Below, piece by piece: positions 9,933-62,003 of a stretch of DNA of 64,000 bases (position 1 is the first letter of the stretch; each line of letters starts with the position of its first letter). Location of the stretch: assembly GCF_019443125.1 (NCBI RefSeq), contig NZ_JAHYXK010000012.1, positions 62,001 to 126,000 of the forward strand. The letters are read 5' to 3'. The translations under genes were made by a program, and so were the position numbers. Origin of the DNA: Pontibacter aydingkolensis. Its GTDB lineage: Bacteria; Bacteroidota; Bacteroidia; Cytophagales; Hymenobacteraceae. Below the pieces are notes generated by a model. It did no database searches and was not told where the DNA came from. It saw only the letters and a program-made list of their open reading frames with translations.

Positions 9933-9953
9933 AAATAAAATTTCGAGAGCGTT

Positions 9954-12587: not shown

Positions 12588-12612
12588 GTCTAAGGCATAA
12601 CTATAAAGGATA

Positions 12613-13902: not shown

Positions 13903-13926
13903 AGACTTTACTAAAAGCGTTATATA

Positions 13927-14997: not shown

Positions 14998-15016
14998 CAT
15001 TTAAATACTTTTGAAA

Positions 15017-43132: not shown

Positions 43133-43146
43133 AACCATAATGGCAG
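43087..43146 (+). repeat. 60-bp direct repeat, left copy
   Basis: Identical at all 60 positions to 61944-62003. It contains the last 15 codons and stop of the STAS gene, a 7-base spacer and ATGGCAG, the first seven bases of purA. The reading after it (GGTGCGTGGTAG) diverges from purA. Confidence 0.95.
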
Positions 43147-43561: not shown

Positions 43562-46500
43562 ATGATAAAACGTTTACTTCAGTATTCATTTATTGCTGTT
43601 GCGACACTAGTTATGCTGTTGCAGTTCTATGGTAACAGCACCGCCACTTCTTTCGGCGAAAACATCCAATCTACCTTCAAAGCATTATTAGCAGATCCTG
43701 TTGCTCTTTCTGCCGATTCTGTTTCTGCTATGCCAGATACAGAGGTAGTGGTGCCTGTGCGTGTAAAAAGCTTTAGAAACATCATTACAGGCCAGGGCAC
43801 CATCTCATTTGACCCTGCAGTTGCAAGTTTTGTAGGAGTAGAACAGTATGGCTTACCTGGCATGGGAAGTTCAAACTTTGGAACAGCTCAGGCTAGCAAC
43901 GGTAAGGTTATCTTCTCCTGGGATGATGCCACACTGGCAGGAAAGACTTTGGCGGATAATGCCGTTATTTTTGCTATCCGTTTTAAGGTGGTTGGGACAT
44001 ACGGCAAAAGCAGTAACATCAGCTTTATTAACAGTCCTGCAGCTATAGAGTTCGTTGATAAGGATTTTATTACGATACCTACTACTCTCAAAGCTGGTAA
44101 GGTGCAAGTGCCGGCATACTCTATCACAACAAGTGCTTTAGCTAGCAACAGCTTGTGCACAGAAAGCAACGTGAGGGTTGCCTTTACAACAGAAGGTACT
44201 TATACTTCTGACAACTTATTTACAGCGCAGCTTTCAGATGCTAACGGATCTTTTGCTGCCTCGACGGTTATTGGTACAGGAACTGCTAGTCCAATTGCTG
44301 CAACGATACCTTCAACTGTCGCTGAAGGTACAGGTTACCGTATCAGGGTGATAGCTTCTTCACCTGCTATTACCGGAACGAATAACGGCAGCAACATTTC
44401 TATCAGCACAACACCTGCTGCACCAACTACAACTGGAGCAGAACGTTGTGGATCGGGTACAGTAACTTTAACAGCTAGCGGAGCTCCAACAGGCGGTTCT
44501 TACCGCTGGTATACTACTTCCACAGGCGGAACAGCCATAGCTGGTGAAACAGGTGCTACCTATACTACTCCAAGTATAAACGCTACTACAACCTATTATG
44601 TAGCAGCGGTTAGTAGCTCAGGTTGTGAAAGTATTAGGGTAGCCGTTGAAGCGAAAGTAATACCGGCCTTGGCTAATAATACCATATCTTCAGATCAGAT
44701 TATATGTAGCGGGGCGACTCCTGCTCAGCTTACTGGTACGCTTCCAACAGGCGGGACTGGCACATACACTTATGCCTGGGAACAGAGTACAGATGGATCA
44801 ACTTTCACAGCTATAGCTGGTGCAGCTGATCAGAACTATACACCTGGTGCCCTTACAGCAGATACTTGGTTCAGAAGAAAAGTAGCTTCAGGTAGTGTGT
44901 GCTCCGAAAGTATAAGCAGCACGATAAAAGTCTCTATTTCTCCGATGCCAGCCGCTCCTACGGCCAGTGACGCGGTAATATGTGAAGGCGCAACTGCCAC
45001 ACTAAGTATAACCTCTCCGAACGCTGCCTATACGTACCGCTGGTATACAGCTGAAACAGGTGGTACATTATTAGCTTCAGGCGCTTTTTACACTACACCT
45101 GTACTAAGTGCAACCACAACTTATTATGTAGAAACGCTGAGTGCTGCGGGCTGTATGAGTTCCAGAACAGCAGTTACTGTAACTGTAAATGCTGTGCCTG
45201 CTGCGCCAACTGTTACAGGTGCTGAGCGCTGTGGTACTGGTGCTGTTACTTTATCTGCTTCAGGTGCACCGATAGGGGCAAGCTATCACTGGTATACGGC
45301 TGCTGTTGGCGGTACAGCCATTAGTGGAGAAACAGCTGAAACTTACACTACTACAAGCCTTTCATCTACGGCTACTTACTATGTATCAGTAGTGAGCAGC
45401 TCAAACTGCGAGAGCCCTAGAACGGCTGTAACGGCTACAATAAATTCTGTGCCAACTGCCCCAACTGCTTCTGATGTTGAACGATGCGGAGCAGGTACAG
45501 TAACCTTAACAGCCAGCGGGGCGCCATCAGGAGCTAGCTACCGCTGGTATACAACAGCTACTGGCGGTACTGCCATTAGCGGTGCTACGGGTGCTTCTTA
45601 TACTACTCCAAGCTTGAGTGCAACCACTACTTATTATGTGTCTGTAGTTAACGGCTCAAACTGCGAAAGTACCCGAACAGCAGTTACGGCTACGGTTAAG
45701 GAAGTGCCAGCCACACCTACCGCTACAGCTGCACCTGTTCAGGTTGGAGGCACGCTCAACTTAAGTGCCAGCACAGTAGCAGGAGCCACCTATACCTGGA
45801 CCGGGCCAAATAGCTTTACTTCTACCATGCAATATCCTGCCATTGCAAAGGCAACACTAGCAAACTCTGGTACTTACAGCGTGGTAGCAACCATTAATGG
45901 CTGTAGCAGCGAAGCAGGTACTGTAGACGTAACGGTAATAGATGTGCAACCAGTAACTTTTGATGCAGACTCTCTAAGCGGTTATCAGAATACGGAAGTT
46001 GTGATTCCTGTAAGGGTAAAAGGTTTTGCCAACATTGTAAGCATGCAATACAGCGTAAACTGGGACGCTACTGTAGCAACTTTCATGGCTGTAGAAGACT
46101 TTGGCTTAACTAACCTTACTGCTACAAGTTTTGGCACCAGCCAGGCATCTACTGGTAAACTGATGCTATCCTGGAGCGATGCTTCTCTAAACGCCTACTC
46201 TCTGCCTGATACAACTGTACTGTTTAACCTTCGCCTGAAATTAACTGGTGCCATGGGTGCAAGCACACCGGTTACTATAACAGGCACGCCTACTCCTATA
46301 GAGGTGTCAGAAAAGAATGGCTTTGTTGTACCTGTTAAAACTCTAGCCGGAGCCGCTACCGTGCGTAAGCTGCTTAAGATCAGCGGAAAAATTAAGTCTG
46401 AGCAAAGTGAGGGGATACGTACTGTAAATGTTATAGCATCCGGTGGCACTACTCCAGTACCATTTGAGACGAAGCCGGACGGACTGTATGAGTTTGAGGT

Positions 46501-47629
46501 GATGCAGAATGGTACTTACACTATCAGTCCTTTCAAAAACAATGATGTGGAGGCGTACAATGGTATCACTACCCTGGACATTGCCTTGATCAGAAGACAC
46601 ATCTTAGCTGTTACGGCTTTAGGATCGCCTTATAAAATGCTGGCAGCAGATGCGGATAACTCCGGTACTATCACTACAACCGACATTGCCACCATACGAA
46701 AAGTTGTATTAACTATCGACACTCACTTCCCAGGGAAGCGTCAATGGAGGTTTGTGCCGCAGAATTTTACATTCAGCGATCCAGCTAATCCTTTCCCGTT
46801 CAAAGACTCTGTACAGGTACATACCAATATTGTAAAGGCACTAACAGGGCAGGATTTTATAGGTGTGAAAATAGGTGATGTAAACAATACCTGGGATGCC
46901 AGCACGGCAAGACTAGCTACTGCCGGTAACCTGCAGGTACAGCTAAATGATCAACAGGTAATCCCTGGCTCTGAAGTACTGGTGCCTGTAAAGGTGTATG
47001 ATTTCAAGAACGTGAGTAGTTACCAGTTCACGCTTAATTGGGATCCAAAAGTGCTGGAATATCAAAGTATAGAAAACGGGGCTACGCAAGCTGCATTCGG
47101 TTCACATAGAGTAAGCGAAGGAAAACTGACCACAGCCTGGGACGACCCCGCAGGTAAGAGCCAGACCTTAACGGAAGGAAGCGCGATCTTCTACATGAAG
47201 TTTAAAGCCATAGGGGAGGTGAACACACAAACTGATGTGGCTATTACTTCTGACCTTACCCGCAGCGTTGCCTATAACCAAAACCTGCAGCAACTGAATG
47301 TAAAGCCAATAAAGGCAAGTATAGCGCTTCGAAGTACAGCTGTTCCTGTTATAACAGGGTATACTTTACACCAGAACGCTCCGAACCCATTCTCACAAAG
47401 CGGTACCACTATCCGCTTCAGCATACCGGAGCAGGAGGAGGTAACTATCAGCGTCTACAACTCTTTGGGCCAGCTGGTAAGAACTTACCGCAATACCTAT
47501 GCCGCTGGTGAGCATGAGATTTTCTGGGACGGCAAAAACAGCAAGGGCCACGCACTAAGCAAAGGCACCTACTTCTACCGTATGGAGGCCGGAAAATTCA
47601 CAGAGGTTAAGCGAGCCATCCTTTTCTAA
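43562..47629 (+). CDS. Secreted multidomain surface protein with three cohesin-like, one dockerin-like and Ig-like domains, T9SS-sorted
   Basis: A 1355-residue protein with a signal peptide (about 1-30). In order: a cohesin-like domain (46-185, ADSVSAMPDTEVVVPVRVKS), a beta domain (190-290), about six Ig-like repeats with the pattern CGSGTVTLTASG...YRWYTT...TTYYVAAV (290-800), a second cohesin-like domain, a dockerin-like module with NGITTLDIALIRRHIL and AADADNSGTITTTDIA, a third cohesin-like domain, and a C-terminal T9SS sorting domain (about 1257-1355, NAPNPFSQSG ... GTYFYRMEAGKF). Probably displayed on the cell surface. It is the first of four related genes in an apparently inserted block. 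No catalytic domain is seen. Confidence 0.88.
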   Translation: MIKRLLQYSFIAVATLVMLLQFYGNSTATSFGENIQSTFKALLADPVALSADSVSAMPDTEVVVPVRVKSFRNIITGQGTISFDPAVASFVGVEQYGLPGMGSSNFGTAQASNGKVIFSWDDATLAGKTLADNAVIFAIRFKVVGTYGKSSNISFINSPAAIEFVDKDFITIPTTLKAGKVQVPAYSITTSALASNSLCTESNVRVAFTTEGTYTSDNLFTAQLSDANGSFAASTVIGTGTASPIAATIPSTVAEGTGYRIRVIASSPAITGTNNGSNISISTTPAAPTTTGAERCGSGTVTLTASGAPTGGSYRWYTTSTGGTAIAGETGATYTTPSINATTTYYVAAVSSSGCESIRVAVEAKVIPALANNTISSDQIICSGATPAQLTGTLPTGGTGTYTYAWEQSTDGSTFTAIAGAADQNYTPGALTADTWFRRKVASGSVCSESISSTIKVSISPMPAAPTASDAVICEGATATLSITSPNAAYTYRWYTAETGGTLLASGAFYTTPVLSATTTYYVETLSAAGCMSSRTAVTVTVNAVPAAPTVTGAERCGTGAVTLSASGAPIGASYHWYTAAVGGTAISGETAETYTTTSLSSTATYYVSVVSSSNCESPRTAVTATINSVPTAPTASDVERCGAGTVTLTASGAPSGASYRWYTTATGGTAISGATGASYTTPSLSATTTYYVSVVNGSNCESTRTAVTATVKEVPATPTATAAPVQVGGTLNLSASTVAGATYTWTGPNSFTSTMQYPAIAKATLANSGTYSVVATINGCSSEAGTVDVTVIDVQPVTFDADSLSGYQNTEVVIPVRVKGFANIVSMQYSVNWDATVATFMAVEDFGLTNLTATSFGTSQASTGKLMLSWSDASLNAYSLPDTTVLFNLRLKLTGAMGASTPVTITGTPTPIEVSEKNGFVVPVKTLAGAATVRKLLKISGKIKSEQSEGIRTVNVIASGGTTPVPFETKPDGLYEFEVMQNGTYTISPFKNNDVEAYNGITTLDIALIRRHILAVTALGSPYKMLAADADNSGTITTTDIATIRKVVLTIDTHFPGKRQWRFVPQNFTFSDPANPFPFKDSVQVHTNIVKALTGQDFIGVKIGDVNNTWDASTARLATAGNLQVQLNDQQVIPGSEVLVPVKVYDFKNVSSYQFTLNWDPKVLEYQSIENGATQAAFGSHRVSEGKLTTAWDDPAGKSQTLTEGSAIFYMKFKAIGEVNTQTDVAITSDLTRSVAYNQNLQQLNVKPIKASIALRSTAVPVITGYTLHQNAPNPFSQSGTTIRFSIPEQEEVTISVYNSLGQLVRTYRNTYAAGEHEIFWDGKNSKGHALSKGTYFYRMEAGKFTEVKRAILF

Positions 47630-47643
47630 GAACACCTTAAAAA

Positions 47644-47675
47644 GTAGCTGCAGGAATTACTGTGGCTACTCTTCC
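47644..47675 (+). terminator. Hairpin in the spacer after the first surface gene
   Basis: GTAGCTGC and GTGGCTAC form an imperfect stem followed by TCTTCCTT. The same hairpin occurs in the next spacer (51641-51672), so the spacer was duplicated with its gene. Confidence 0.5.
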
Positions 47676-47720
47676 TTATTTGGTGCAATTAATAATCTGT
47701 TCTTTCTCTGAAGCAAAAGC

Positions 47721-50700
47721 ATGAAACAAATTTACTTGCTGCTGTCTTATGTAAATAAGGTAAACTCATTGAAGTTTACTGTGCTGACAGTTTTGATATT
47801 AATCTCAAAAAATCCTTTACTGGCCCAAGCACCCATAACTAAAGAATGGGATAAAACTTTTGGGGGTGGTGAATGGGACCACTTTACAACCCTTGCATTA
47901 GCTACTGATGGCGGCTATCTAGTAGGCGGTTTTACTGATGCAAATGCTGGTGGCGACAAAAGCCAAAATTCAAAAGGTAGTTGGGATTATTGGGTGGTCA
48001 AACTCAATGCCGATGGAACAAAGGCTTGGGACAAAACCTTTGGGGGAGACAGTTCAGACTTACTTTATTCGGCAGTATCAACCTCAGATGGAGGCTTCTT
48101 ACTCACAGGATATTCTAACTCTACAAAAAAGCCTAATAGCGATAAAACTGAAAACCCTAAAGGTTCCGATTACTATAATGACTATTGGGTAATTAAGCTT
48201 AATGCCGACGGTACAAAAGCTTGGGATAGAACTTATGGGGGCGATAAAGATGATCATTTGTCATCCGTCATATCTACACCTGATGGCGGCTTTTTATTAG
48301 GCGGCTCCTCTTATTCAGGAAGTAGTGGAGAGAAATCAGAGGAAGCTAGAGGTCTTAGGGATTATTGGATAGTAAAGCTATATGCCGACGGTACAAAGGC
48401 TTGGGACAAAACCTATGGAGGAAGTGGAGATGATTTTTCTCCTGTTCTTACAGTATCACAAGATGGCAATTATTTAATAGCTGGCAATTCTAACTCTAGT
48501 TCTGATGGTGACAAAACTGAAACTAATAAAGGTAGCTATGACTATTGGATAATAAAAGTTGATACAAATGGTAATAAAATATGGGATAAAACCTATGGTG
48601 GGAATGGTTATGACTACTATCCTACTTTGGCCATATCACCGGATGGGGCAATATTATTAGGTGGATTTACTGACTCTGGTATAGGCGGTGATAAAACTGA
48701 TGCTTTAAAAGGCGGAGAAGACTATTGGGTGCTTAAGCTCAGTCCTGATGGTACGAAGATGTGGGATAAGAGTTATGGAGGTCCAAATCAAGACTGGCTT
48801 AAGTCTATAGTGGTGACAGCTGATGGTGGATACTTATTAGGTGGGTGGTCAAGCTCTGCGTCAATGGGTGATAACAGTGGGTCTGGCTATGGTTATTCAG
48901 ATTATTGGATAGTGAAAATTACTGCTGATGGCACAAAGGTTTGGGATAAGACCTATGGAGGGACTGGTTCTGATATGTTAAAATCTATGATTGCTACAGC
49001 AGAGGGCGGATATCTTTTAGGTGGAGAGTCTGACTCGGAGGCTAGTGGAAATAAGGTGGATGGAGTTAAGAGTGGCTGGGACTATTGGGTAGTGAAAATT
49101 AATGACAATGGTACTAAGATTTGGGACAAAAGCCTTGGAGGAAGTGCCTATGATAGTTTTCGTACTCTTACTTTGGCTATCGATAATGGATATCTTTTAG
49201 CAGGGAGTTCCTCTGCAGGTTCAGGCTCTGGTGCTGGTAGCAATAAATCAGAAGTCTCAAAGGGAGCAACCGATTATTGGGTAGTAAAGCTTGATGTAGA
49301 TGGCAAAAAGGAGTGGGATAGGACCTTTGGTGGACGAGATGGAGAAGATTTACAAGCTGTAATAAAAACAAAAGATGGAGGTTATTTGCTAGGAGGAAGC
49401 TCTGGTTCATATGCAAGCCATGATGTAACTGAAAATTCTAGAGGCATTACAGACTATTGGGTTGTAAAGCTTGACTCTAATGGTAATAAAATTTGGGATA
49501 AACGATTCGGAGGAGACGGTTATGATGATTTATATTCATTGGCCGAAACCCCTGACGGAGGGTATTTGCTCGCTGGAAACTCAAACTCAAGTGTCAGCGG
49601 TGACAAAACGGAAAATAATAGAAGTAGCTATGACTATTGGATCGTAAAAATTGACGCAAATGGTAACAAAATGTGGGATAGAACTTATGGGGGGAGTGGC
49701 TATGAACGCCTTTTTAGTATTCTTACAACACATGATGATAAGATTATATTAGGAGGAGAATCTAACTCAGAGGCAGATGGGGATAAGACTGAAAACTCAA
49801 AAGGCACGTTTGATTATTGGGTAGTAAAGTTAAATGATGATGGGTCTAAAATATGGGATAAAACTATTGGGGGAAGTAAAATAGATGTACTTTATTCCAT
49901 TTCATCTACCCTTGATAATAAATATTTGTTAGGTGGATGGTCAGATTCTGGGGCGGATGGTGACAAGACTGAAAGCTCGGTAGGTGGGGATGATTTTTGG
50001 GTTGTCAAAATTGATAGTGACGGAAATATCGTTTGGGATAAGACCATTGGAAGTAGCGGTTATGACTATTTATATTCCATCTCAAAAACTGCAGACGGAG
50101 GCTTTCTGCTGGGGGGAACCTCTAGCTCAGAAGTCAGCGGAGATAAGTCAGAGCCATCTAAAGGTGGAATAGATTACTGGGTCGTCAAGATTGATAGTGA
50201 CGGAAATATCGTTTGGGATAAAACCATTGGAGGGAAAGGGAACGATGATTTACCTTCTATTGCAACGACTGCAGACGGAGGCTTTCTACTAGGGGGAACC
50301 TCTAGCTCAGAAGTCAGCGGAGATAAGTCAGAGCCATCTAAAGGTGGAACAGATTACTGGGTATTGAAATATGTGTCTGCCATGGCTCCCACAGTTACTC
50401 TATCTGGTACAATCAACTCCCCAAGAGGTACTCCAATAAACAACTCTAGGGTGAAGTTGAAGGGTAGTAATGACAAACAAACCCTTACAACTTCTTCTAT
50501 TGGTAGTTTCTCTTTTACTCCTACCGAAACAGGTGCCTATAGCCTAGCTCCGGCGAGCAGAGGAGAGATAGACGCGACAAACGGCATCACCACCTTGGAT
50601 ATAGTACAGATTCAGCGCCATATTCTAGGAGTGAAACCGCTTGCAACACCTTACAAAATTATAGCGGCTGATGTAAATAACTCCGGCTCAGTTACCACTT

Positions 50701-51626
50701 TGGATATTGCGCTTATTCGCTCGCTTATCCTGCACAACAGTACCAGCTTCCCAGGCAATAGAAACTGGGCTTTCGTAAAGAGCGATTTCTTATTCACTGA
50801 TCCAACCAACCCTTTCCCTTTCGACAGCACCCGCACTTATAGCAAGGTTTCGGAGCTGAGTGATCAGGACTTCATCGGTATTAAGCTCGGAGATGTGAAC
50901 GACTCCTGGGATGCATCGGTAGCCAGAATAGCTTCTGCCGGAAATCTGTACTTTAACCTGCAGGATCAGCAAGTTAAACCCGGCACAGAAGTAGTTGTAC
51001 CGGTAACAGTAAGCGACTTCAAGAACGTGAGTGGGTATCAGTTCACCCTGAGTTGGGACCCGGAGGTGCTAGAGTTTTCCAGAGTAGAACATTCCGAGTT
51101 GGAAGCTAACTACGGCATGCAGAGTATTAAACAGGGGAAATTAACAACTGTATGGGCGGAGCCGAATGGCGGGAGCCTGAGCTTACCTAACGGTGCAGAA
51201 GCATTCAAGGTAAGGTTCAGGATAGTAGGAGGGAGCAAAGCGGAAAGTAAGGTGGAAATAGGCTCGGCGCTTACTAGGAGCGTGGCCTACACCGATGAAC
51301 TAGAACAGCTCAATGTCCGGTCTGAGCATGCTGTGGTTAAAGTAAAAGCACCTGCTTATTCTCTGTTCCAGAACTATCCAAACCCATTCTCGCAGAACGG
51401 AACAAGCATCCGTTTCAGCATTCCAGAGCAGGATGAGGTGAGCATCAGCATCTACAACTCTCTGGGCCAAGTGGTAAAAACCTTCAAGTGTACCTATGAG
51501 GCCGGGGAGCACGAACTTCTTTGGGACGGAAAAAACCAGCAGGGACAAAGGCTCAACAGGGGCGCTTACTTCTATCGCATGGAGGCCGGCAGGTTTACAG
51601 AGGCCAAACAAGCCATTATTCAATAA
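47721..51626 (+). CDS. Secreted protein with 14 propeller-like repeats plus dockerin- and cohesin-like modules, T9SS-sorted
   Basis: A 1301-residue protein. Residues about 42-890 are 14 tandem repeats of about 60 residues, each running WDKTYGGxGxD...DGGYLLGGxSxS...GDKTE...DYWVVKLxxDGxK; the spacing suggests one or two beta-propellers. The last two repeats share nearly identical DNA with a 180-bp period. Then come a dockerin-like module (NGITTLDIVQIQRHIL, AADVNNSGSVTTLDIA), a cohesin-like domain (LQDQQVKPGTEVVVPVTVS) and a T9SS sorting domain (NYPNPFSQNG). The N terminus is odd: MKQIYLLL, copied from the next gene's start, precedes a second hydrophobic signal. Codon use in the repeats is more AT-rich than in neighbours. 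Confidence 0.87.
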   Translation: MKQIYLLLSYVNKVNSLKFTVLTVLILISKNPLLAQAPITKEWDKTFGGGEWDHFTTLALATDGGYLVGGFTDANAGGDKSQNSKGSWDYWVVKLNADGTKAWDKTFGGDSSDLLYSAVSTSDGGFLLTGYSNSTKKPNSDKTENPKGSDYYNDYWVIKLNADGTKAWDRTYGGDKDDHLSSVISTPDGGFLLGGSSYSGSSGEKSEEARGLRDYWIVKLYADGTKAWDKTYGGSGDDFSPVLTVSQDGNYLIAGNSNSSSDGDKTETNKGSYDYWIIKVDTNGNKIWDKTYGGNGYDYYPTLAISPDGAILLGGFTDSGIGGDKTDALKGGEDYWVLKLSPDGTKMWDKSYGGPNQDWLKSIVVTADGGYLLGGWSSSASMGDNSGSGYGYSDYWIVKITADGTKVWDKTYGGTGSDMLKSMIATAEGGYLLGGESDSEASGNKVDGVKSGWDYWVVKINDNGTKIWDKSLGGSAYDSFRTLTLAIDNGYLLAGSSSAGSGSGAGSNKSEVSKGATDYWVVKLDVDGKKEWDRTFGGRDGEDLQAVIKTKDGGYLLGGSSGSYASHDVTENSRGITDYWVVKLDSNGNKIWDKRFGGDGYDDLYSLAETPDGGYLLAGNSNSSVSGDKTENNRSSYDYWIVKIDANGNKMWDRTYGGSGYERLFSILTTHDDKIILGGESNSEADGDKTENSKGTFDYWVVKLNDDGSKIWDKTIGGSKIDVLYSISSTLDNKYLLGGWSDSGADGDKTESSVGGDDFWVVKIDSDGNIVWDKTIGSSGYDYLYSISKTADGGFLLGGTSSSEVSGDKSEPSKGGIDYWVVKIDSDGNIVWDKTIGGKGNDDLPSIATTADGGFLLGGTSSSEVSGDKSEPSKGGTDYWVLKYVSAMAPTVTLSGTINSPRGTPINNSRVKLKGSNDKQTLTTSSIGSFSFTPTETGAYSLAPASRGEIDATNGITTLDIVQIQRHILGVKPLATPYKIIAADVNNSGSVTTLDIALIRSLILHNSTSFPGNRNWAFVKSDFLFTDPTNPFPFDSTRTYSKVSELSDQDFIGIKLGDVNDSWDASVARIASAGNLYFNLQDQQVKPGTEVVVPVTVSDFKNVSGYQFTLSWDPEVLEFSRVEHSELEANYGMQSIKQGKLTTVWAEPNGGSLSLPNGAEAFKVRFRIVGGSKAESKVEIGSALTRSVAYTDELEQLNVRSEHAVVKVKAPAYSLFQNYPNPFSQNGTSIRFSIPEQDEVSISIYNSLGQVVKTFKCTYEAGEHELLWDGKNQQGQRLNRGAYFYRMEAGRFTEAKQAIIQ

Positions 51627-51640
51627 GAGCATTTATAAGG

Positions 51641-51672
51641 GTAGCCGCGGGAAATACTGTGGCTACTCTTCT
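51641..51672 (+). terminator. Hairpin in the spacer after the second surface gene
   Basis: GTAGCCGC pairs with GTGGCTAC across a 10-base loop, followed by TCTTCTTT. It is the paralogue of the hairpin at 47644. Confidence 0.55.
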
Positions 51673-51718
51673 TTATCTGTTATTCTACCAATACCCATAA
51701 TCACCCTAAAGCAAAAGC

Positions 51719-54700
51719 ATGAAACAGATTTACTTGCTGCTATTTCTCTTTGTTTTCTTAGGCTGCGGCTCTGCATTTAGCCAAACCTATATCCTGAACG
51801 AAGACTTCTCCTCAGCCTCAGAGGCTACTCCTCCAACTGGCTGGGCAAACACAACCGTTACCGGAGTGGCTACAGATAAGTGGCGCTTCGATAACATTGG
51901 TAACCGCAACCTGCCTTACCCATTCACGGGCAAGTTTGCCATTTTCGACAGCGACAACTACTCTAAAGCAGACGGTGCCGAGAATGTGATCCTAGAGTCG
52001 AAGTTCTTTGATGCTTCTATCAGTAACAATACTTTGATCACCTTTGACCACTTCTTCTCTGGAGGTAAAAATGGTAAAGGGACTTTAGAAGTATACAACG
52101 GCAGCAGCTGGAGCATTATTGCTACTTTCACCGATAGTACGGCACTTCCGGAAAGCAAGCTTTATAATCTTTCTTCTAAAGTAGGCGGTGTTACTAACGC
52201 GAAGGTCCGTTTCCGCTGGCAGGGTGATGCTTCTTATTTCTGGGCTATAGATAACATCCGGATTTACTCGCCACTCTCACGCGATGGAGGTATGGTGAAG
52301 CTTAACTCACCGGAGATGCCTTTCAACTCCGGAAGTCAGGCAATCAAAGTAACCTTAGCAAACTTCGGTATTGATGCATTAAAGAAGACAACGATAAAAT
52401 GGACAGTTAACGGAGTAGTGCAGCCTTCTAAAAACTGGACAGGTTCTTTGGCTATTGGAGCGACAGAAGAGAATATTAGTCTAGGCAATTTTACTTTCCA
52501 GCAGGGCAAGCAGTATCAGTTTAAGATTTGGCAGGAGAACCCGAATGGGCAGCCAGATTTGAATGCGCTGAATGATACCTCGTATGCGACTTTGTATAGC
52601 AGCCTTTCCGGCGTCTACACAATCGGCGGCACGTCTCCAGATTTCAAGACCTTCACGGAGGCTGTGACGGTGCTCAACAACGCCGGGATTGTGGGCCCTG
52701 TGACTTTCAGGGTCAGGAACGGCACCTACAGTGAGCAGATCGTGATCGGCAAGGTGACGGGAGCCTCGGCGGCGAATCGTATCGTTTTCGAGTCTGAGAG
52801 CGGGGACAGCACCAAGGCAGTTCTAAATTATACTATGAACAGCGTGTTAGATTACACCTTGCTTATTAACGGGGGGCAGCATCTCTCCTTCAGAAAGCTT
52901 GGCTTTAGAAGAATGGAGGGCAGATACTTGGTTAAGATCGAGAAAGGGAGTCAGTATGTGGGCTTTGAGAACTGCCATTTTGAAACTACTTATTCTCAAA
53001 GCGGAATAAATATTGCCGCCTCAGGCAATATAAGAATCTCCCAAAGCAACCTAAGCCAAGCCAAGATAAGCATTGGCAACTCTGGCGAATACCAGGATTA
53101 TACGCGTGTTAAAGACATCACGATTACGGGTAACACGATAGACAGCTACAGTTTTTACTCAAACGCCATAGAGGCCAATGGCTACTACGGGGGCATCGAC
53201 AACTTGATTATCGACTCCAACCAGACTACGGGGCAGATTACTTTAGCCAGTGGGCTTAGCAACAGCAGCGTAACAGGCAATAAGATAGGAGCCAGGCTAA
53301 CCTTTGACAACAATACTTATTATACCGGCACGGGCTATGTCTCTAATATGCCGGGCAACGTGATCTCGGGCAATATTATCACAGCCTCATCTCAGACCGG
53401 TACGGGAATGTATGTCACCAATCGCGTAGCCGAGGTGAGCGGCAACACTATAACCGGTGTTACCAACTCCATGGGCATGGGGCTAATCTCATTGAACGGA
53501 ACTTTGGTGGCCAATAACTTTATTCAGACCCAGGGGCAGGGAACCACCTACGGCATCTCCTTGAGCAACAGCTCAGACGTGAGGCTGGTCTTCAACAGCG
53601 TGCACACCACGGGCACGGATCTGAGCCAGGCGCGCGCCTTCCACTCGGCAACCGGCAACAGTAACCTGACGGTGAAGAACAACATCTTCTCAAACTCAGG
53701 CGGGGGCTACGCAGCCGTGTTTGAGGCGGCGCCTTCGGGCACAAACGACATCGACTACAACAACTACCACTCCTCGGGCGGCAGACTAGGGAAGTATACA
53801 GGCACCGATTACACGTCTCTCTCAGCCTGGGGGCAGGCGGTGAAGGGCGACGCCAACTCCAAATCAGTCAACCCCTTCTTCAAGTCAACAACAGGTCCGA
53901 GTGTAAATCATATAGTACTAAACAATGCAGGCATACCTGTTAACGGTATCGCTAAGGACATTAACGGTACCACGCGAAATACGAGCAAGCCGGACATCGG
54001 CGCCAAGGAATATACGCCTGCAGCGGTTGACGCAGGCTTGGATGCCTTTGTTTCCCCGACAAGTCCGCTCACCGGCACTTCAGCTCCCGTGAAAGTGCTT
54101 CTACGTAACCAAGGCCTAAGCCTCCTTTCTTCTGTGTCCGTTCAGTGGACGGTGAACGGTGTGGAGCAGGCACCCTACAACTGGAGCGGGAGCTTGGCAA
54201 ACGGCGCGGAGGAGGAGGTTACGCTGAAGACATACACCTTTACGGGTGCCCCGATCTTCAACATCAAAGCCTGGACAAGCAATCCTAACAGTCAACCGGA
54301 TCCGAACCGTTACAATGACACGGCTTCGGTGAAGAATCTTGTTGCAGCACTTTCCGGCGTCTACACAATCGGCGGCACGTCTCCAGATTTCAAGACCTTC
54401 ACGGAGGCTGTGACGGTGCTCAACAACGCCGGGATTGTGGGCCCTGTGACTTTCAGGGTCAGGAACGGCACCTACAGTGAGCAGATCGTGATCGGCAAGG
54501 TGACGGGAGCCTCGGCGGCGAATCGTATCGTTTTCGAGTCTGAGAGCGGGGACAGCACCAAGGCAGTTCTAAATTATACTATGAACAGCGTGTTAGATTA
54601 CACCTTGCTTATTAACGGGGGGCAGCATCTCTCCTTCAGAAAGCTTGGCTTTAGAAGAATGGAGGGCAGATACTTGGTTAAGATCGAGAAAGGGAGTCAG

Positions 54701-57700
54701 TATGTGGGCTTTGAGAACTGCCATTTTGAAACTACTTATTCTCAAAGCGGAATAAATATTGCCGCCTCAGGCAATATAAGAATCTCCCAAAGCAACCTAA
54801 GCCAAGCCAAGATAAGCATTGGCAACTCTGGCGAATACCAGGATTATACGCGTGTTAAAGACATCACGATTACGGGTAACACGATAGACAGCTACAGTTT
54901 TTACTCAAACGCCATAGAGGCCAATGGCTACTACGGGGGCATCGACAACTTGATTATCGACTCCAACCAGACTACGGGGCAGATTACTTTAGCCAGTGGG
55001 CTTAGCAACAGCAGCGTAACAGGCAATAAGATAGGAGCCAGGCTAACCTTTGACAACAATACTTATTATACCGGCACGGGCTATGTCTCTAATATGCCGG
55101 GCAACGTGATCTCGGGCAATATTATCACAGCCTCATCTCAGACCGGTACGGGAATGTATGTCACCAATCGCGTAGCCGAGGTGAGCGGCAACACTATAAC
55201 CGGTGTTACCAACTCCATGGGCATGGGGCTAATCTCATTGAACGGAACTTTGGTGGCCAATAACTTTATTCAGACCCAGGGGCAGGGAACCACCTACGGC
55301 ATCTCCTTGAGCAACAGCTCAGACGTGAGGCTGGTCTTCAACAGCGTGCACACCACGGGCACGGATCTGAGCCAGGCGCGCGCCTTCCACTCGGCAACCG
55401 GCAACAGTAACCTGACGGTGAAGAACAACATCTTCTCAAACTCAGGCGGGGGCTACGCAGCCGTGTTTGAGGCGGCGCCTTCGGGCACAAACGACATCGA
55501 CTACAACAACTACCACTCCTCGGGCGGCAGACTAGGGAAGTATACAGGCACCGATTACACGTCTCTCTCAGCCTGGGGGCAGGCGGTGAAGGGCGACGCC
55601 AACTCCAAATCAGTCAACCCCTTCTTCAAGTCAACAACGGAGCTCCGAGCATACCAACGAGCACTAAACGGTGCCGGTATACCAGTTGCAGGCGTAGTGT
55701 TGGACATAGACGGAGAGATCAGAAACAGCTCAGCCCCGGATATTGGAGCAGACGAGTTTATGGTAGACTTTGGTATTACCCGTTTGATCAGCCCAACTTT
55801 GGATTGCGACCAGACAGCAACAGAAGCAGTAACGGCTAACATTGCGCAGTTCGGTGATATTCCTTTTACAGACCTGAAGATCGCCTATCAGGTAAACAAG
55901 GGCACGATCTATACTGAGACTATAAAAGGCCAGATCAATACAGACATCGCCCATACTTTCCAGCAGGTGCAGAACCTGCTTCAGGACGGGCGCTATGATT
56001 TTAAAGTATGGCTGGTGGGCATTCAAGATGATAACGTGAACAACGATACCCTGTATGTGGCCCGCTTCAAGAAGCCAAGACCGAACGCCAGCTTCAACTT
56101 CAAGGCAGAATGCGCTGGTGTGGCGGTTTCCTTCCAGGGAAATGCAAGTGTGAACCCTGGTAAGATTGCACGCTACGAATGGGATTTTGGTGACGGAGAG
56201 ATGGCGCATGAGCAGAATCCGAAGCACATTTTTGCTAAGTCAGGTACCTATACAGTTACGCTGCGTGCTTACTCAGAGGAAGGTTGCTACGGTTCAGTTA
56301 CACGTGAAGTAACTATTACAACTACTCCAGAAGCCAAGTTCTCTGCGGCTAACTCATGTGCCGGTGCACCACTTACCTTCAAAAATGAAAGTACGGTAAG
56401 CGCTGGCACCATCACCTACCTGTGGGATTTCGGCGATGGCACAAGTTCTACAGAGCAGCATCCAACCAAAACATACAGCAAAGCAGGAACCTATAAAGTT
56501 CAACTTACTGCAAGCAATAACTCAGGCTGTAGCAATGTATACTTCAAGAATGTGGTAGTGAATGAACTACCTGCTGTTACATTTGCAACTTTCAATCCTG
56601 TTTGTGCAGAGGCCCCGGCCTTTAATTTAACAGGAGGCTTGCCAAAAGGAGGTATTTATTCAGGTAAAGGTGTGGTAGATGGTATGTTTAACGCTACGAC
56701 GGCTGGTATTGGCACACACACCATAATTTATACTTATACAAACGAGAACGGCTGTATCAGTACTGCTACCAACACTATACAGGTGAAGGCATTGCCAACT
56801 GTTTCTTTCTCGGGTCTGCCGGCAACTATTTGCTCTAGTGCGGCTGCGGTTACGTTAACTGCTTCGCCGGCTGGTGGTGTTTGGGTAGGTAACGGCATGA
56901 ACAAGGATGGCGTGTTCACACCGGCCACAGCAGGAGTGGGCACCCATAATGTTGAGTATATTTATTCTGATGCGGGAGGTTGTACAAACAAAGTTACCAA
57001 AACAGTAGAAGTAACTTCAGTAACGGGAACATTAACAGCCAGCAGCAACAGCCCTGTAAAAATAGGAGAAACGCTAAACCTGTCAGCTTCTACCATTACA
57101 GGCGCTACTTATAGCTGGACCGGTCCGAATAGTTTTACATCAACTTCTCAGAATCCGTTTATAGCAAATGTTACCAGCAAAGCAGCGGGTGCTTATACTG
57201 TAACGGCTACAGTAGATGGTTGCAGGATTTCAGCTATAATTGATGTTGTTATCGATCAACCTACTGTAATTGCCAGTTTTAGTCCTATAAATGGAATAGA
57301 GGGTACAAGTGTAACAATAAAAGGAAGTGGTTTTACTGGAGCTACCCGAGTTCAATTCCGCAATGCAAGTGCTAATGGTTTTAAAATAGTTGATGATGAA
57401 ACAATTGTTGTTGCTGCACCAGGTTGTTGTACTGGCCCCATAAGTGTAACTACATCTACTGGTACCGTTGTAAGCAAAGAAGTCTTCACAGTGTTAGATA
57501 ATACTATTACTATTTCTACATTGCCAAATGGCGCTACCTACTGTGCGGGAGGTTCTATCAATATACCATTTACAGTAACTGGTACTTATACTTCAGGCAA
57601 CTCATTCACAGCACAGCTGTCTAATGCCTCTGGTAGCTTTGCTTCGCCGGTTAATATTGGCACGATGAGCGGTACAGCATCCGGCACCATTTCAGCAACT

Positions 57701-59959
57701 ATACCTGCAGGTACTACACTTGGCAATGGCTATAGAGTAAGAGTTATATCTGCAAGTCCAGCTATTATAAGTGGTGATAATGGTGCGAACCTGTCTGTAC
57801 AGAACAAGCCTGCAGCACCAGGTGCTATTACAGGTGTTACTAGCATTTGTAACGGCTCTGAAGTTACCTATACAATCACGGCCGTAAGTGGCGCTACTTC
57901 TTATGAGTGGACTGTGCCGAACGGATGGGGAATTACATCTGGGGAAGGCACAACTAGTATAAAAGTAACAGTCGGAAGTACAGGTGGCAACATTACAGTG
58001 ACCGCAACCAATTACTGTGGCACAAGCAGCGCGAGTACTAAGGCTGTAAGTATAACAACAGTAACCGCCCCTACAGTATCAGCAAACACGCCACAAGTAG
58101 GAGAAACCCTTAACCTTACAGCCGGCAGCATCAGCGGTGCAACGTACAGCTGGACAGGGCCATTAGGTTTTACTTCTACCGAGCAAAATCCAACCAGAGC
58201 AAATGCTACAGCAGCAATGGCGGGTACTTATTCTGTTACAGCTACGGTAAATGGCTGTACAAGTGCAGCGGCAACTGTTACAGTAACTGTTGGCGAAGCT
58301 AATGCGCTAACCATCGCTGTAGATTCTGTTAGCGGAAGCTCTAATGCAGAAGTACTGGTACCAGTACGAGTAAAAGACTTCAAAAATATCCTTTCCATGC
58401 AGGGAAGTATAAACTGGAACAGCAGCATTGCCACATTTGTAGGCGTGGAGTCTTTCGGCTTGGAAGGTATGAGCAGCGCAAGCTTTGGTCAAACTAATGT
58501 GACTAACGGGCAATTGACCTTCTCATGGCATGAAGCGAGCTCTACGCCAGTTATACTTTCTGATGATGCGGTTATTTTTGCTTTAAGGCTCAAATTGGTT
58601 GGAGCAGCTGGTTCGAGTACTGCTGTAACTGTTACAAATACTCCAGTTAAGATAGAGGTGACAAACAATAGCTTTACAGCCATTCCTGTTACTACCAAAG
58701 TTGGTGCTGCTATCATAGCAAGTGAGGTTACTGTTGCTGGTACTGTTAAATCTCAGTTGGGTACATCGCTTACCAACGTAACTGTAAGAGCAACAGGTGG
58801 GGCCAACAGTAAGTCAATTACAACAGGAGCCTCAGGTGCGTTTAGCTTTGATCTTACAGAGGGCGCCAGTTATACTTTGGCGCCTACCAGACGCACTGAA
58901 GTTGATGTGACCAACGGTATAACTACCCTAGACCTGGTGCAGATACAGCGCCACATTTTGGGTATGCAGTCACTGGCATCGCCTTATAAGATTATTGCGG
59001 CAGATGTTAACAATTCAGGCTCTGTTACTACCCTGGATGTTGCCCTGATACGTGCGCTCATCCTTTACAACATTACCAGCTTCCCTAAAGAAAGAATGTG
59101 GGCCTTTGTGAAGAGCGATTACTCCTTTGCAGATCCTACCATGCCTTTCCCTTACGACAGCACAAGAGTGTATAGCAAAGCTGCTGGTTTAAGTAGTCAG
59201 AACTTTATAGGTGTAAAACTAGGGGATGTAAATGACAGCTGGGATGCCTCTACTGCCCGATTGAAGGTGGCTGGTGAAGTGGCCTTTAACATGGAAGATC
59301 AACTGACAGCGCCGGGTACAGAAATAGTGGTACCTGTTTCGGTTCAGAACTTCAGTGATGTGTGTGGTTATCAGTTCACACTATCATGGGACCCGAAAGT
59401 GCTGGAGTTCTCCAGGGTGGAGCATGCCGGAGTGGAGAGTGTTTACGGAACCCATAGCATCGGCAAAGGTAAGTTAACAACAGTGTGGGCCGAGCCGAAC
59501 GGCAGAAGCTTAAGTCTGACAGATGGTACTAAAGTCTTCTATGTTCGATTTAAAGTAGTCGGAGAGAACGGAGCGGAGAGTAAAGTGGAGATAGGCTCAG
59601 CTCTTACCAAAAGTGTGGCTTACACTGGTAGCCTGGCGCAACTGAATGTGCAGTCGCAGCATGCAGTAGTAAAAGTTAAGGCACCTACTTACGCTTTATT
59701 CCAGAATTACCCTAATCCATTCAACAGCCAGACAACCCTTCACTTTGAGCTAGCTGAAGAGCAGGAAGTACAGTTCACAATTTACAATGCTCTAGGACAG
59801 GTTGTGAAGCAGATCAGTGGTAAATATGCTGCCGGTGAGCATACTGTTGTCTGGAAAGGAGATGACGGAAAAGGCAACAGGTTAAGCAAAGGAACTTACT
59901 ATTGCCGCATGCAGGCAGGTAAGTATACAAACGCTGTACAGATCATACTTGCCAAATAA
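51719..59959 (+). CDS. Giant surface protein (2746 residues) with duplicated beta-helix, PKD, IPT and cohesin/dockerin-like domains, T9SS-sorted
   Basis: A signal peptide (MKQIYLLLFLFVFLGCGSAFSQ) leads to a jelly-roll-like domain (about 25-190, FDHFFSGGKNGKGTLEVY) and a CARDB-like segment. Two right-handed beta-helix domains follow, identical in sequence (from SGVYTIGG to NPFFKSTT), each followed by a CARDB-like linker. Next are two PKD domains (YEWDFGDGE, YLWDFGDGT), Ig-like repeats, an IPT/TIG domain (FSPINGIEGTSVTIKGSGF), a cohesin-like domain, a dockerin-like module (AADVNNSGSVTTLDVA), a second cohesin-like domain and a T9SS sorting domain (NYPNPFNSQ). No catalytic site is evident, though beta-helices of this type often bind or cut polysaccharide. 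Confidence 0.87.
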   Translation: MKQIYLLLFLFVFLGCGSAFSQTYILNEDFSSASEATPPTGWANTTVTGVATDKWRFDNIGNRNLPYPFTGKFAIFDSDNYSKADGAENVILESKFFDASISNNTLITFDHFFSGGKNGKGTLEVYNGSSWSIIATFTDSTALPESKLYNLSSKVGGVTNAKVRFRWQGDASYFWAIDNIRIYSPLSRDGGMVKLNSPEMPFNSGSQAIKVTLANFGIDALKKTTIKWTVNGVVQPSKNWTGSLAIGATEENISLGNFTFQQGKQYQFKIWQENPNGQPDLNALNDTSYATLYSSLSGVYTIGGTSPDFKTFTEAVTVLNNAGIVGPVTFRVRNGTYSEQIVIGKVTGASAANRIVFESESGDSTKAVLNYTMNSVLDYTLLINGGQHLSFRKLGFRRMEGRYLVKIEKGSQYVGFENCHFETTYSQSGINIAASGNIRISQSNLSQAKISIGNSGEYQDYTRVKDITITGNTIDSYSFYSNAIEANGYYGGIDNLIIDSNQTTGQITLASGLSNSSVTGNKIGARLTFDNNTYYTGTGYVSNMPGNVISGNIITASSQTGTGMYVTNRVAEVSGNTITGVTNSMGMGLISLNGTLVANNFIQTQGQGTTYGISLSNSSDVRLVFNSVHTTGTDLSQARAFHSATGNSNLTVKNNIFSNSGGGYAAVFEAAPSGTNDIDYNNYHSSGGRLGKYTGTDYTSLSAWGQAVKGDANSKSVNPFFKSTTGPSVNHIVLNNAGIPVNGIAKDINGTTRNTSKPDIGAKEYTPAAVDAGLDAFVSPTSPLTGTSAPVKVLLRNQGLSLLSSVSVQWTVNGVEQAPYNWSGSLANGAEEEVTLKTYTFTGAPIFNIKAWTSNPNSQPDPNRYNDTASVKNLVAALSGVYTIGGTSPDFKTFTEAVTVLNNAGIVGPVTFRVRNGTYSEQIVIGKVTGASAANRIVFESESGDSTKAVLNYTMNSVLDYTLLINGGQHLSFRKLGFRRMEGRYLVKIEKGSQYVGFENCHFETTYSQSGINIAASGNIRISQSNLSQAKISIGNSGEYQDYTRVKDITITGNTIDSYSFYSNAIEANGYYGGIDNLIIDSNQTTGQITLASGLSNSSVTGNKIGARLTFDNNTYYTGTGYVSNMPGNVISGNIITASSQTGTGMYVTNRVAEVSGNTITGVTNSMGMGLISLNGTLVANNFIQTQGQGTTYGISLSNSSDVRLVFNSVHTTGTDLSQARAFHSATGNSNLTVKNNIFSNSGGGYAAVFEAAPSGTNDIDYNNYHSSGGRLGKYTGTDYTSLSAWGQAVKGDANSKSVNPFFKSTTELRAYQRALNGAGIPVAGVVLDIDGEIRNSSAPDIGADEFMVDFGITRLISPTLDCDQTATEAVTANIAQFGDIPFTDLKIAYQVNKGTIYTETIKGQINTDIAHTFQQVQNLLQDGRYDFKVWLVGIQDDNVNNDTLYVARFKKPRPNASFNFKAECAGVAVSFQGNASVNPGKIARYEWDFGDGEMAHEQNPKHIFAKSGTYTVTLRAYSEEGCYGSVTREVTITTTPEAKFSAANSCAGAPLTFKNESTVSAGTITYLWDFGDGTSSTEQHPTKTYSKAGTYKVQLTASNNSGCSNVYFKNVVVNELPAVTFATFNPVCAEAPAFNLTGGLPKGGIYSGKGVVDGMFNATTAGIGTHTIIYTYTNENGCISTATNTIQVKALPTVSFSGLPATICSSAAAVTLTASPAGGVWVGNGMNKDGVFTPATAGVGTHNVEYIYSDAGGCTNKVTKTVEVTSVTGTLTASSNSPVKIGETLNLSASTITGATYSWTGPNSFTSTSQNPFIANVTSKAAGAYTVTATVDGCRISAIIDVVIDQPTVIASFSPINGIEGTSVTIKGSGFTGATRVQFRNASANGFKIVDDETIVVAAPGCCTGPISVTTSTGTVVSKEVFTVLDNTITISTLPNGATYCAGGSINIPFTVTGTYTSGNSFTAQLSNASGSFASPVNIGTMSGTASGTISATIPAGTTLGNGYRVRVISASPAIISGDNGANLSVQNKPAAPGAITGVTSICNGSEVTYTITAVSGATSYEWTVPNGWGITSGEGTTSIKVTVGSTGGNITVTATNYCGTSSASTKAVSITTVTAPTVSANTPQVGETLNLTAGSISGATYSWTGPLGFTSTEQNPTRANATAAMAGTYSVTATVNGCTSAAATVTVTVGEANALTIAVDSVSGSSNAEVLVPVRVKDFKNILSMQGSINWNSSIATFVGVESFGLEGMSSASFGQTNVTNGQLTFSWHEASSTPVILSDDAVIFALRLKLVGAAGSSTAVTVTNTPVKIEVTNNSFTAIPVTTKVGAAIIASEVTVAGTVKSQLGTSLTNVTVRATGGANSKSITTGASGAFSFDLTEGASYTLAPTRRTEVDVTNGITTLDLVQIQRHILGMQSLASPYKIIAADVNNSGSVTTLDVALIRALILYNITSFPKERMWAFVKSDYSFADPTMPFPYDSTRVYSKAAGLSSQNFIGVKLGDVNDSWDASTARLKVAGEVAFNMEDQLTAPGTEIVVPVSVQNFSDVCGYQFTLSWDPKVLEFSRVEHAGVESVYGTHSIGKGKLTTVWAEPNGRSLSLTDGTKVFYVRFKVVGENGAESKVEIGSALTKSVAYTGSLAQLNVQSQHAVVKVKAPTYALFQNYPNPFNSQTTLHFELAEEQEVQFTIYNALGQVVKQISGKYAAGEHTVVWKGDDGKGNRLSKGTYYCRMQAGKYTNAVQIILAK
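52604..53892 (+). repeat. 1289-bp intragenic direct repeat, copy 1
   Basis: Encodes the first beta-helix domain. I found no difference from 54350-55638 at DNA level; the offset is 1746 bases, a multiple of three, so the frame is kept. The segment looks more GC-rich than the flanking Ig-like parts. Confidence 0.95.
54350..55638 (+). repeat. 1289-bp intragenic direct repeat, copy 2
   Basis: Second copy of the beta-helix coding segment. Sequence diverges sharply at both ends (before CTTTCCGG and after TCAACAAC), which marks exact duplication borders. Confidence 0.95.
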
Positions 59960-59983
59960 AAAGAAGCTGAAAGAGGAGAATAG

Positions 59984-61717
59984 ATGATGAGGCAGATCTT
60001 GTTAATAACTGTGCTTTTAGTAGGCTTCCTAACGGCAGCTGCATCGCATACTTTTGGTCAGGCTACAGAGGTACTGCTTTCTGCAGACTCTGTAGCAGGC
60101 CTTCCTGGTACTGAGGTGCTGCTGCCTGTGCGTGTGAAGGGGTTTGATAATGTGATCACGGGACAGGGTACTGTTGCCTTTGATCCTAAGGTTGTAGAGC
60201 TGGTAAGTATAGAACAGCACGGGTTAAGCGGTTTAGATGCCTCAAGTTTTAACACAGCTAAGGCCGCCAGTGGGATCATACTATTTTCCTGGGATGATGT
60301 CTCTCTAAGCGGACAGTCTTTACCGGATGATGCTATTTTGTTTGCAATTCGCTTTAAGATTACAGGCACCTACGGCGCAAGTAGTAGTATTAATTTTGTT
60401 AATAGTCCGACCAGGCTAGAGTTTTCTAATAAGAGTTTTGAGGAGGCAGATCTAAAGCTAGCGAGTGGTAAAGTGCAGGTGCCAGTATATGCCATCAAAA
60501 CCAGTTCTATGGATGCCAGTGCTTTTTGTGCTGGTAGTAGTATTAGTGTAGCATATACATCCCAGGGTGATTTTCCTGACGGAAATATTTTCTCTGTTGA
60601 GCTCTCTGATAGTAGAGGATCTTTTGCTAATGCAACAACCATCGGAAGCGGAGGAGTTAGTCCGATCCAGGTAAGCTTGCCTGCAGATATGGGAGAGGGG
60701 GCTGGCTATAGAATAAGAGTTAGTTCCTCGGCACCTTTAGTAGCTGGCAGTGACAATGGAAGCGACTTAGCAATTAGTTTTGTGCCTGCGGCCCCTGTCG
60801 TAACAGGAAGCAGCAGCTGTGGTCCGGGAGTGCTAACATTATCAGCTAGTGGGGCTCCAGTTGGAGGAAGCTACCGTTGGTATACAGATGCGAACAGCAA
60901 CCGGGCCATACACGACCAAAAAGGTGCAACTTACATTACCAGAATCATCCATACTACCTCCACATTTTATGTATCAGCTGTAAACAGTTTAGGCTGCGAA
61001 AGTGAAAGGGTGCCAGTAGAAGCACAGATCTATGATTTAAATTCAATTACAGCAGGTCCTGACGAGGAGACATGTATTACAGATGCCCCCTTCATCCCTA
61101 AGGGTGTCTCGCCCGCAGGAGGTATCTGGTCCGGAACAGGTATGAATGATGCTGGCCTTTTTGATCCGTCATCTGTAGGTGCGGGTATTTATACTATAAA
61201 ATATACTTTCACATGTCTTAACGGGAGTATAGGAGAAGCTTCTAAAAAAGTTAGAGTTATAGACCTAGAACATAAACCTGAAATCAAGCAGATAAATGCA
61301 GACATACTGGAAGTTGATTTGATCGGCTCCGAATATGAATGGGTAGGCAATGGAAAAGTGTTTACTTCTACAACGAACCGTATTAAGATCGATGAGCCGG
61401 GCTTTTATAAGGTTAAGGTGCTTGATAGTGCATGTGCTTCAGTAGATTCTGATATTTTTGTCGCATCTTTTTACTCAGACTATGTGGTATATCCTAATCC
61501 AAGCTTTGGAACGGCGACAATATCTGGGCCTACTTTAGATGAGGCACTAGAAATTGAAGTTTATAATACAGTAGGTAAGAAAGTTTTTTCTAAAAGCTTC
61601 AGAAGCTTTACCGGGCGAGAGCGGTTGGAGTTGTACCACCTAAGCCCCGATATGTATTTTATGTCGATCAGAACAGCAAATACGAAAAAGATAGTGCGAT
61701 TTGCTGTTGCGATTTAA
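59984..61717 (+). CDS. Secreted cohesin-like and Ig-like domain protein, T9SS-sorted
   Basis: A 577-residue protein with a purine-rich ribosome-binding site (AGAGGAGAA) just upstream; two ATG codons in tandem open the frame. A signal peptide (1-25) is followed by a cohesin-like domain (about 27-165, LSADSVAGLPGTEVLLPVRVKG) closely similar to that of the first surface gene, a beta domain, one Ig-like repeat (CGPGVLTLSASGAP...YRWYTD), a segment with GGIWSGTGMNDAGLF, and a C-terminal sorting domain (YPNPSFGTATISG) more divergent than the other three. It lacks a dockerin-like module. It lies 24 bp after the giant gene and is probably co-transcribed. Confidence 0.85.
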   Translation: MMRQILLITVLLVGFLTAAASHTFGQATEVLLSADSVAGLPGTEVLLPVRVKGFDNVITGQGTVAFDPKVVELVSIEQHGLSGLDASSFNTAKAASGIILFSWDDVSLSGQSLPDDAILFAIRFKITGTYGASSSINFVNSPTRLEFSNKSFEEADLKLASGKVQVPVYAIKTSSMDASAFCAGSSISVAYTSQGDFPDGNIFSVELSDSRGSFANATTIGSGGVSPIQVSLPADMGEGAGYRIRVSSSAPLVAGSDNGSDLAISFVPAAPVVTGSSSCGPGVLTLSASGAPVGGSYRWYTDANSNRAIHDQKGATYITRIIHTTSTFYVSAVNSLGCESERVPVEAQIYDLNSITAGPDEETCITDAPFIPKGVSPAGGIWSGTGMNDAGLFDPSSVGAGIYTIKYTFTCLNGSIGEASKKVRVIDLEHKPEIKQINADILEVDLIGSEYEWVGNGKVFTSTTNRIKIDEPGFYKVKVLDSACASVDSDIFVASFYSDYVVYPNPSFGTATISGPTLDEALEIEVYNTVGKKVFSKSFRSFTGRERLELYHLSPDMYFMSIRTANTKKIVRFAVAI

Positions 61718-61943: not shown

Positions 61944-62003
61944 AAACGATAACTTTGCAGCTCAATTCTTAAAGGAATCAATTTACTAAAACCATAATGG
62001 CAG
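61944..62003 (+). repeat. 60-bp direct repeat, right copy
   Basis: Exact copy of 43087-43146. Here the STAS gene's terminal codons are an orphan remnant in front of purA, and ATGGCAG is the true purA start. Confidence 0.95.

Follow-up and report, generated by a model that had tools for sequence, protein, structure and literature searches.

Putatively mobile cluster of type IX-secreted proteins in Pontibacter aydingkolensis that combine cohesin and dockerin modules on the same chains

The closest described counterpart of the proteins analysed here is the Coh-X-Doc end of the scaffoldin CipA of C. thermocellum (3kcp/4fl4), in which one chain carries a cohesin, then a small beta-sandwich and then a dockerin. 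In the sca cluster of R. flavefaciens, three scaffoldins bear dockerins and a surface protein lacks one (PMC2930009). Other work describes a dockerin together with several cohesins on one protein in anaerobic methanotrophic (ANME) archaea (PMC9012536) and, in Ca. Stygibacter (Cloacimonadota), a cohesin scaffold with a C-terminal surface-attachment domain and dockerins on separate enzymes (PMC8542988). Each of these is partly mirrored by a cluster of four adjacent open reading frames (ORFs), designated A to D, at positions 43562-61717 on the + strand of a 64,000-nucleotide stretch of the Pontibacter aydingkolensis genome (hereafter the window). C has the module order of CipA, A-D resemble the sca cluster in having three members with dockerins and one without, A-C share with the ANME protein the presence of dockerin and cohesins on one chain, and A-D share with Stygibacter a cohesin protein bearing a C-terminal domain for surface attachment, putative in the case of A-D. 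The ends of the four frames coincide exactly with the span given in the original prediction for this DNA.

Unlike cellulosomal scaffoldins, A-C carry a folded linker and a second cohesin after the dockerin, and end in a sorting tail of the type IX secretion system (T9SS). They differ from the ANME and Stygibacter proteins as composites of one dockerin and one cohesin, with a conserved linker beneath differing heads, encoded on a putatively mobile insert. Bacteroidota proteins ending in a reg-dockerin-GDVN linker-cohesin tail (loci L012-L089) have the same composite tail and spacing as A-C. No title on such a tail was found in the literature that names dockerin with Saprospiraceae or Pontibacter, a search limited to these names, so that an earlier description under another name is possible. 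On balance, the cluster is probably a mobile one that encodes proteins delivered by the T9SS, with the dockerin packed in cis as an element of a stalk.

Gene A (43562..47629, 1355 aa) encodes, in order, a cohesin of the type termed cohX (43694..44125, PF00963 45.3 bits), Ig_7 repeats, a second cohX (45953..46381, 39.6 bits), a module termed reg, a dockerin (46529..46723), a conserved linker containing K-x-GDVN (46724..46912, 118 bits with a purpose-made profile), a cohesin of the second type, cohY (46913..47347, 53.6 bits), and a T9SS type A sorting tail (47381..47620, TIGR04183 36.4 bits); alignments agree with the placement of the cohesins and the linker. Gene B (47721..51626, 1301 aa) has a propeller-like head followed by reg, dockerin (50550..50744, PF00404 31.1 bits), linker, cohY (50928..51362, PF00963 45.4 bits) and T9SS tail. 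Gene C (51719..59959, 2746 aa) begins with a beta-helix-like duplicate and PKD, followed by cohX, reg, dockerin (58883..59077, PF00404 30.9 bits), linker, cohY and T9SS tail. The three dockerins were also matched by a purpose-made profile. Gene D (59984..61717, 577 aa) consists of cohX (60065..60499, PF00963 47.5 bits), Ig_7 and a T9SS tail, with no dockerin match. A, B and C thus have in common the C-terminal block reg-dockerin-linker-cohY-sorting tail, a constant cassette beneath variable heads.

The presence of cohesins in all four proteins and of dockerins in three, as originally predicted, was borne out by a scan of the whole genome. PF00963 matched three times in A, once in B, twice in C and once in D, all seven above the curated cut-off of 24.1 bits (37.6-53.6 bits, E 8e-9 to 9e-14), and nowhere in the rest of the genome at E 0.001. 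PF00404 matched once each in A, B and C above its cut-off (28.6-31.1 bits, E 1e-6 to 8e-6; 28.6 bits for A) and nowhere else, so that the search for further dockerin-bearing proteins in the genome returned none. In a whole-protein hmmscan the dockerin of A fell just under the cut-off (22.7 against 22.9 bits) and the cohesins of C were not listed; the genome scan scored both of the latter, and their predicted fold confirms them. Pfam and NCBIfam scans of the four proteins listed no catalytic domain, in agreement with the predicted lack of an enzyme. A cellulosome is ruled out, as no PF00404 or PF00963 match lies outside A-D and hence no enzyme in this genome bears a dockerin, a difference from cellulosomes proper. 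The premise that cellulosomal cohesins and dockerins occur on separate proteins does not hold, since scaffoldins carry both (3kcp_A, 4fl4_C; PMC2930009).

The cohesins fall into two types, which share 21-29% identity with each other in the alignment, against 32-56% among cohX and 43-67% among cohY. In A, B and C, cohY lies between the linker that follows the dockerin and the sorting tail; cohX is located before reg (A, C) or near the N-terminus (A, D). The type A sorting tail TIGR04183 scored over its cut-off in 4/4 proteins, among 82 matches genome-wide, the genome encodes the T9SS sortase PorU (1400 bits), and the N-termini of A-D are hydrophobic as judged by eye. Tail and sortase together identify A-D, at the level of sequence, as T9SS type A cargo, the export route that had been predicted. 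As regards the heads, Ig_7 (A and D) and PKD (C) exceeded the Pfam cut-offs, the predicted propeller repeats of B remained below the NCBIfam cut-offs, and the beta-helix of C, not listed by Pfam, is assigned through its counterpart in a congener, G027, which matches Beta_helix with 42.8 bits. The propeller-like part of gene B (48001-50000) shows a marked excess of G over C (skew 0.32).

Structures were predicted by AlphaFold2, and 3 of the 7 cohesins were modelled. C residues 2194-2660, extending from cohX to cohY (58298..59698), were modelled from an alignment of 101 sequences with a predicted local distance difference test score (pLDDT) of 94.2 and a predicted template modelling score (pTM) of 0.82, and the reg-dockerin-linker-cohY block of B alone (50388..51362) with a pLDDT of 95.0 and a pTM of 0.92. 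The match lists of VIA-align for both models were occupied by cohesins: cohX of C superimposed on 5nrm_A (Z 18.1, root-mean-square deviation (rmsd) 1.8 over 132 residues), cohY of C on 4dh2_C (Z 16.8, rmsd 1.9, 135 residues) and cohY of B on 4ums (Z 16.8, rmsd 1.9, 135 residues). The cohesin fold is therefore confirmed for these three modules, and the dockerin helices are predicted as in known dockerins. The stretch between dockerin and cohY, called the linker, is itself predicted to be folded, and the block of B is predicted to form a single rigid unit. The four best Foldseek matches of the C stretch were the Coh-X-Doc end of CipA (4fl4, 3kcp). Residues 1-257 of the C model aligned with 4fl4_C with Z 16.9 over 226 residues at an rmsd of 9.9, which implies that the domain orientations differ, and the arrangement is thus unlike that of CipA.

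Conservation was assessed on 101 aligned rows covering reg, dockerin, linker and cohY, and on 20 sequences of cohX. The dockerin and linker are the most conserved parts of the block, with a mean entropy of 1.39 and 1.76 bits, compared with 2.47 for reg and 2.46 for cohY. In both repeats, dockerin positions 10 and 11, specificity determinants according to PMC8063739, are usually occupied by Thr and a large hydrophobic residue, respectively. Helix 1 has hydrophobic residues at 14-15 and His at 19 in 100/101 rows, and position 15 of helix 3 is mostly polar in relatives and Leu in B and C. Calcium loop 2 is canonical (Asp1, Asn3, Asp12), and loop 1 lacks two residues in 86/101 rows; the window proteins have a loop 1 of full length in which position 5 is Tyr or Thr. 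In the same source (Table 2), Gln37 of the 2y3n cohesin contacts the dockerin. The cohY Gln aligned with it by range, the letter itself being seen in the alignment with 3l8q, is kept in 101/101 rows, and the corresponding Gln of cohX in 19/20 sequences. The spacing over these 101 rows is also nearly fixed: GDVN follows the last loop Asp at 62-69 residues, and the cohesin Gln follows it at 111-131 (interquartile 117-119).

These data bear on the possibility that the modules merely build a plain stalk, the cohesin- and dockerin-like domains acting as rigid spacers (beta-sandwich and EF-hand), with cohesin-dockerin contacts neither in cis nor in trans. Such modules are known outside cellulosomes (Peer et al. 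2009, as cited in PMC9012536), calcium loop 1 deviates from the canonical form, and 26 of 29 dockerin loci in a class-wide sample described below lack the block. A mere spacer, however, would not need the joint conservation of dockerin positions 10/11 and of the contact Gln of the cohesin, and we regard this explanation as unlikely.

To see how the block is distributed, pattern matches were collected from named genomes; at least 586 were found, 496 of which encode a relative, and the best of them gave 79 loci (L011-L089), 50 of which are titled Saprospiraceae. The relatives are 27-42% identical to C over the aligned rows. Each of the 110 dockerin frames at these loci contains exactly one dockerin, followed by linker and cohesin in 103, while a cohesin just before reg, as in A and C, is rare (2/110, including one in the P. 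harenae record L011). Some loci have several block frames side by side.

In a sample from across the class, selected solely by a PF00404 match, 45/198 genomes matched and 29 loci were read. The purpose-made cohesin profiles matched at 14 of the 29 loci, not always on the dockerin frame, and the full block occurred in only three, which rules out the notion that all Bacteroidota dockerins bear this tail. Among the matches listed, the dockerin frames included a glycosyl-hydrolase-31-type domain in at least three cases and a lysyl oxidase domain in at least one; the frame at L159 resembles, by eye, a TonB-dependent receptor.

In the order to which the window belongs, the block was matched in 16 of 291 genomes, six over 100 bits and ten under. 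In all five of the genomes over 100 bits that lie outside the genus, a cohX match lies 53-65 residues before the dockerin and the block is confined to one kind of protein (two copies of 915 aa in G342), with heads that include Rax2, NHL and FG-GAP propellers. G052 has one block protein and, in addition, a 167-aa frame with cohX only. A search for cohX matched 21/291 genomes, 12 of them weakly and partially (21-26 bits; 11 from one genus, plus G053), and these were left out of the cohX count. Three genomes have cohX without the block: no PF00404 dockerin was found in G321, and the single PF00404 match in each of G285 and G389 is a dockerin of a different kind, whose frame (in G389 a 269-aa fragment) is not matched by the purpose-made cohesin profiles. 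Within the genus, cohesins occur in 3/50 genomes and any dockerin match in 7/50, over the cut-off in 5/50. G027 also encodes two giant frames of 3954 and 3876 aa on contigs C60 and C2 (L227, L228), in which a Pfam dockerin is followed by a Pfam cohesin, with weak or no match to the purpose-made profiles.

The genomic setting of the cluster was compared with that of congeners. The genes are enclosed by a perfect 60-bp direct repeat, the left copy (43087..43146) reaching from the end of a small STAS-domain gene (42752-43132, alternative start 42782), located between fur and purA, to the first bases of purA, and the right copy (61944..62003) overlapping the start of purA; the insert measures 18,857 bp from repeat to repeat. 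The repeat is 58/60 identical to the insert-free site of two congeners (L232, L233) and contains an inverted ATTC...GAAT pair, of the kind that an attachment site might have. At all 29 other congener loci read after a search of 50 genomes, purA follows fur without an insert, with gaps of 332-339 bases in 27 cases and of 607 and 646 in two; apparently truncated purA matches in G020 and G021 proved to be runs of N. The congeners G007 and G027 carry the cluster elsewhere, with 334 and about 1,166 bases at purA and no cluster there, so that it occupies a different place in each of the three genomes. Insert-free sites and perfect repeats together mark the four-gene cluster as a putatively mobile insert, as judged by sequence comparison, although a misassembly at the 60-bp repeats might also have produced the apparent insert.

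The insert holds no integrase or transposase of its own: A-D and one antisense frame are the only ORFs of at least 150 aa, and the spacers contain from ATG only frames of 34 and 39 aa. A phage-type integrase is encoded directly beside the G027 cluster (L118 8713-10161, -). In the stretches fetched, no direct repeats of at least 15 and at least 13 bases flank the G027 and G007 clusters, respectively. In their best segments, the G007 proteins are 74% (A), 46-52% (B) and 54% (D) identical to those of the window, and its C is 92% identical over the first 308 residues and 75% in the C-terminal part; the values for G027 are 61-70% (A), 45-49% (B) and 55-66% (C), with a counterpart for the cohesin part only of D (57% over 138 residues). 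A cohesin-only protein accompanies all three clusters, being D itself, a 576-aa protein in G007 (54% identical to D) and a 719-aa protein before A in G027. In G007 the B frame is broken at an N, and the cluster is divided between two contigs (C22, C16) within C; the break inside C would fit a repeat like the exact 1,289-nt repeat of the window gene, whose copies at 52604..53892 and 54350..55638 encode 430 identical residues. A stretch of 40 bases ahead of A (43402-43441) shares 92.5% identity with the corresponding upstream region in G007 and is possibly regulatory.

The original prediction was of a surface coat or scaffold in which neighbouring molecules bind one another. In such an arrangement the dockerins of A, B and C would bind cohX and/or cohY of neighbouring molecules, with A (two cohX) branching, C (one) extending, B (none) capping, and D anchoring or terminating like ScaE. 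The set is closed, with every Pfam cohesin (7) and dockerin (3) of the genome located in A-D; cohX retains the dockerin-contacting Gln; the best multi-module structural match is a true scaffoldin end; and R. flavefaciens likewise has ScaA-C with dockerins and ScaE with a surface signal and no dockerin (PMC2930009). The pairing of a block protein with a cohX-only frame in G052 would also fit. However, every dockerin in A-C is followed at a near-fixed distance by a cohesin on its own chain, the block occurs elsewhere in the order on a single kind of protein, so that the other cluster members are not needed there, and cohX occurs without the block in the three genomes mentioned above. Moreover, each of A-D ends in a T9SS tail, which makes an anchor protein dispensable. 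Assembly in trans, kept in consideration by the closed set, the scaffoldin-like module order and the presence of a cohesin-only protein next to every cluster, has in our view a modest chance of being correct. It is doubtful that the cluster is a horizontally mobile, enzyme-free and self-assembling surface scaffold of a T9SS bacterium, its four exported proteins chained end to end through dockerins and cohX/cohY to give a fibre or coat, with A branching, C extending, B capping and the cohesin-only D anchoring, a scaffoldin network shifted from enzyme display to surface architecture.

Of the original interpretation, the cohesin and dockerin modules, the lack of a catalytic domain and the T9SS tails stand; the analysis also supports a closed set and the occurrence of the cluster at different places in three genomes. 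The binding of neighbours to each other is so far not supported. The evidence leans towards packing of the dockerin on its own chain (103/110 frames, the pTM of 0.92 and lone block proteins), which the original prediction had itself named as a refuting case. A unit closed in cis is favoured by the combination of one dockerin with one cohesin at a near-fixed distance, the folded and conserved linker, the lone block proteins of other genomes and the high pTM. The 18.9-kb insert would have introduced genes for four large proteins secreted by the T9SS; A, B and C have the tail cassette in common, with cohX before reg in A and C and with reg, a small beta-sandwich, in place of the cellulosomal X module. 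We infer that the dockerin, docked or packed in cis, most likely forms with the cohesin of its own chain one rigid, calcium-stabilised stalk. After T9SS export and attachment, this stalk may hold the exchangeable heads (Ig array, propeller-like, beta-helix/PKD) off the cell, and A-D may constitute an adhesive or protective surface layer.

Several observations weigh against the cis-packed stalk. It assigns no role to cohX, and neighbouring block proteins, such as the four dockerin frames at L018, also fit assembly. The block itself served as the query by which the survey loci were selected, and the overlap of L052 and L053 means that one protein enters the count twice; in the class-wide sample the full block is limited to the three loci noted above, and a Pfam cohesin occurs in 7/29 frames. 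The rigidity of the block is read from pTM alone. Finally, mean-field direct coupling analysis of the 101 sequences, a weak signal, returned top pairs resembling sheet and dockerin-linker contacts, among which dockerin-cohY pairs are not over-represented (23 in the top 150, where about 27 would be expected); it was discarded as a means of placing cohY, the signal from this number of sequences being too weak.

Elsewhere in the window, genes for a multihaem cytochrome, molybdopterin/Fe-S and NrfD proteins and a terminal oxidase follow one another at 5567-16843, a row which we take to resemble an alternative complex III plus oxidase operon.

The reg-dockerin-linker-cohesin tail is present in many Saprospiraceae and in some members of the order to which the window belongs. 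If the dockerin is locked in cis, a very strong protein pair would serve here as a built-in stalk element, and dockerins in Bacteroidota ought not to be taken for a sign of a cellulosome. If it instead acts in trans, the cluster would encode an enzyme-free surface polymer. In either case, these proteins represent a small, testable system.

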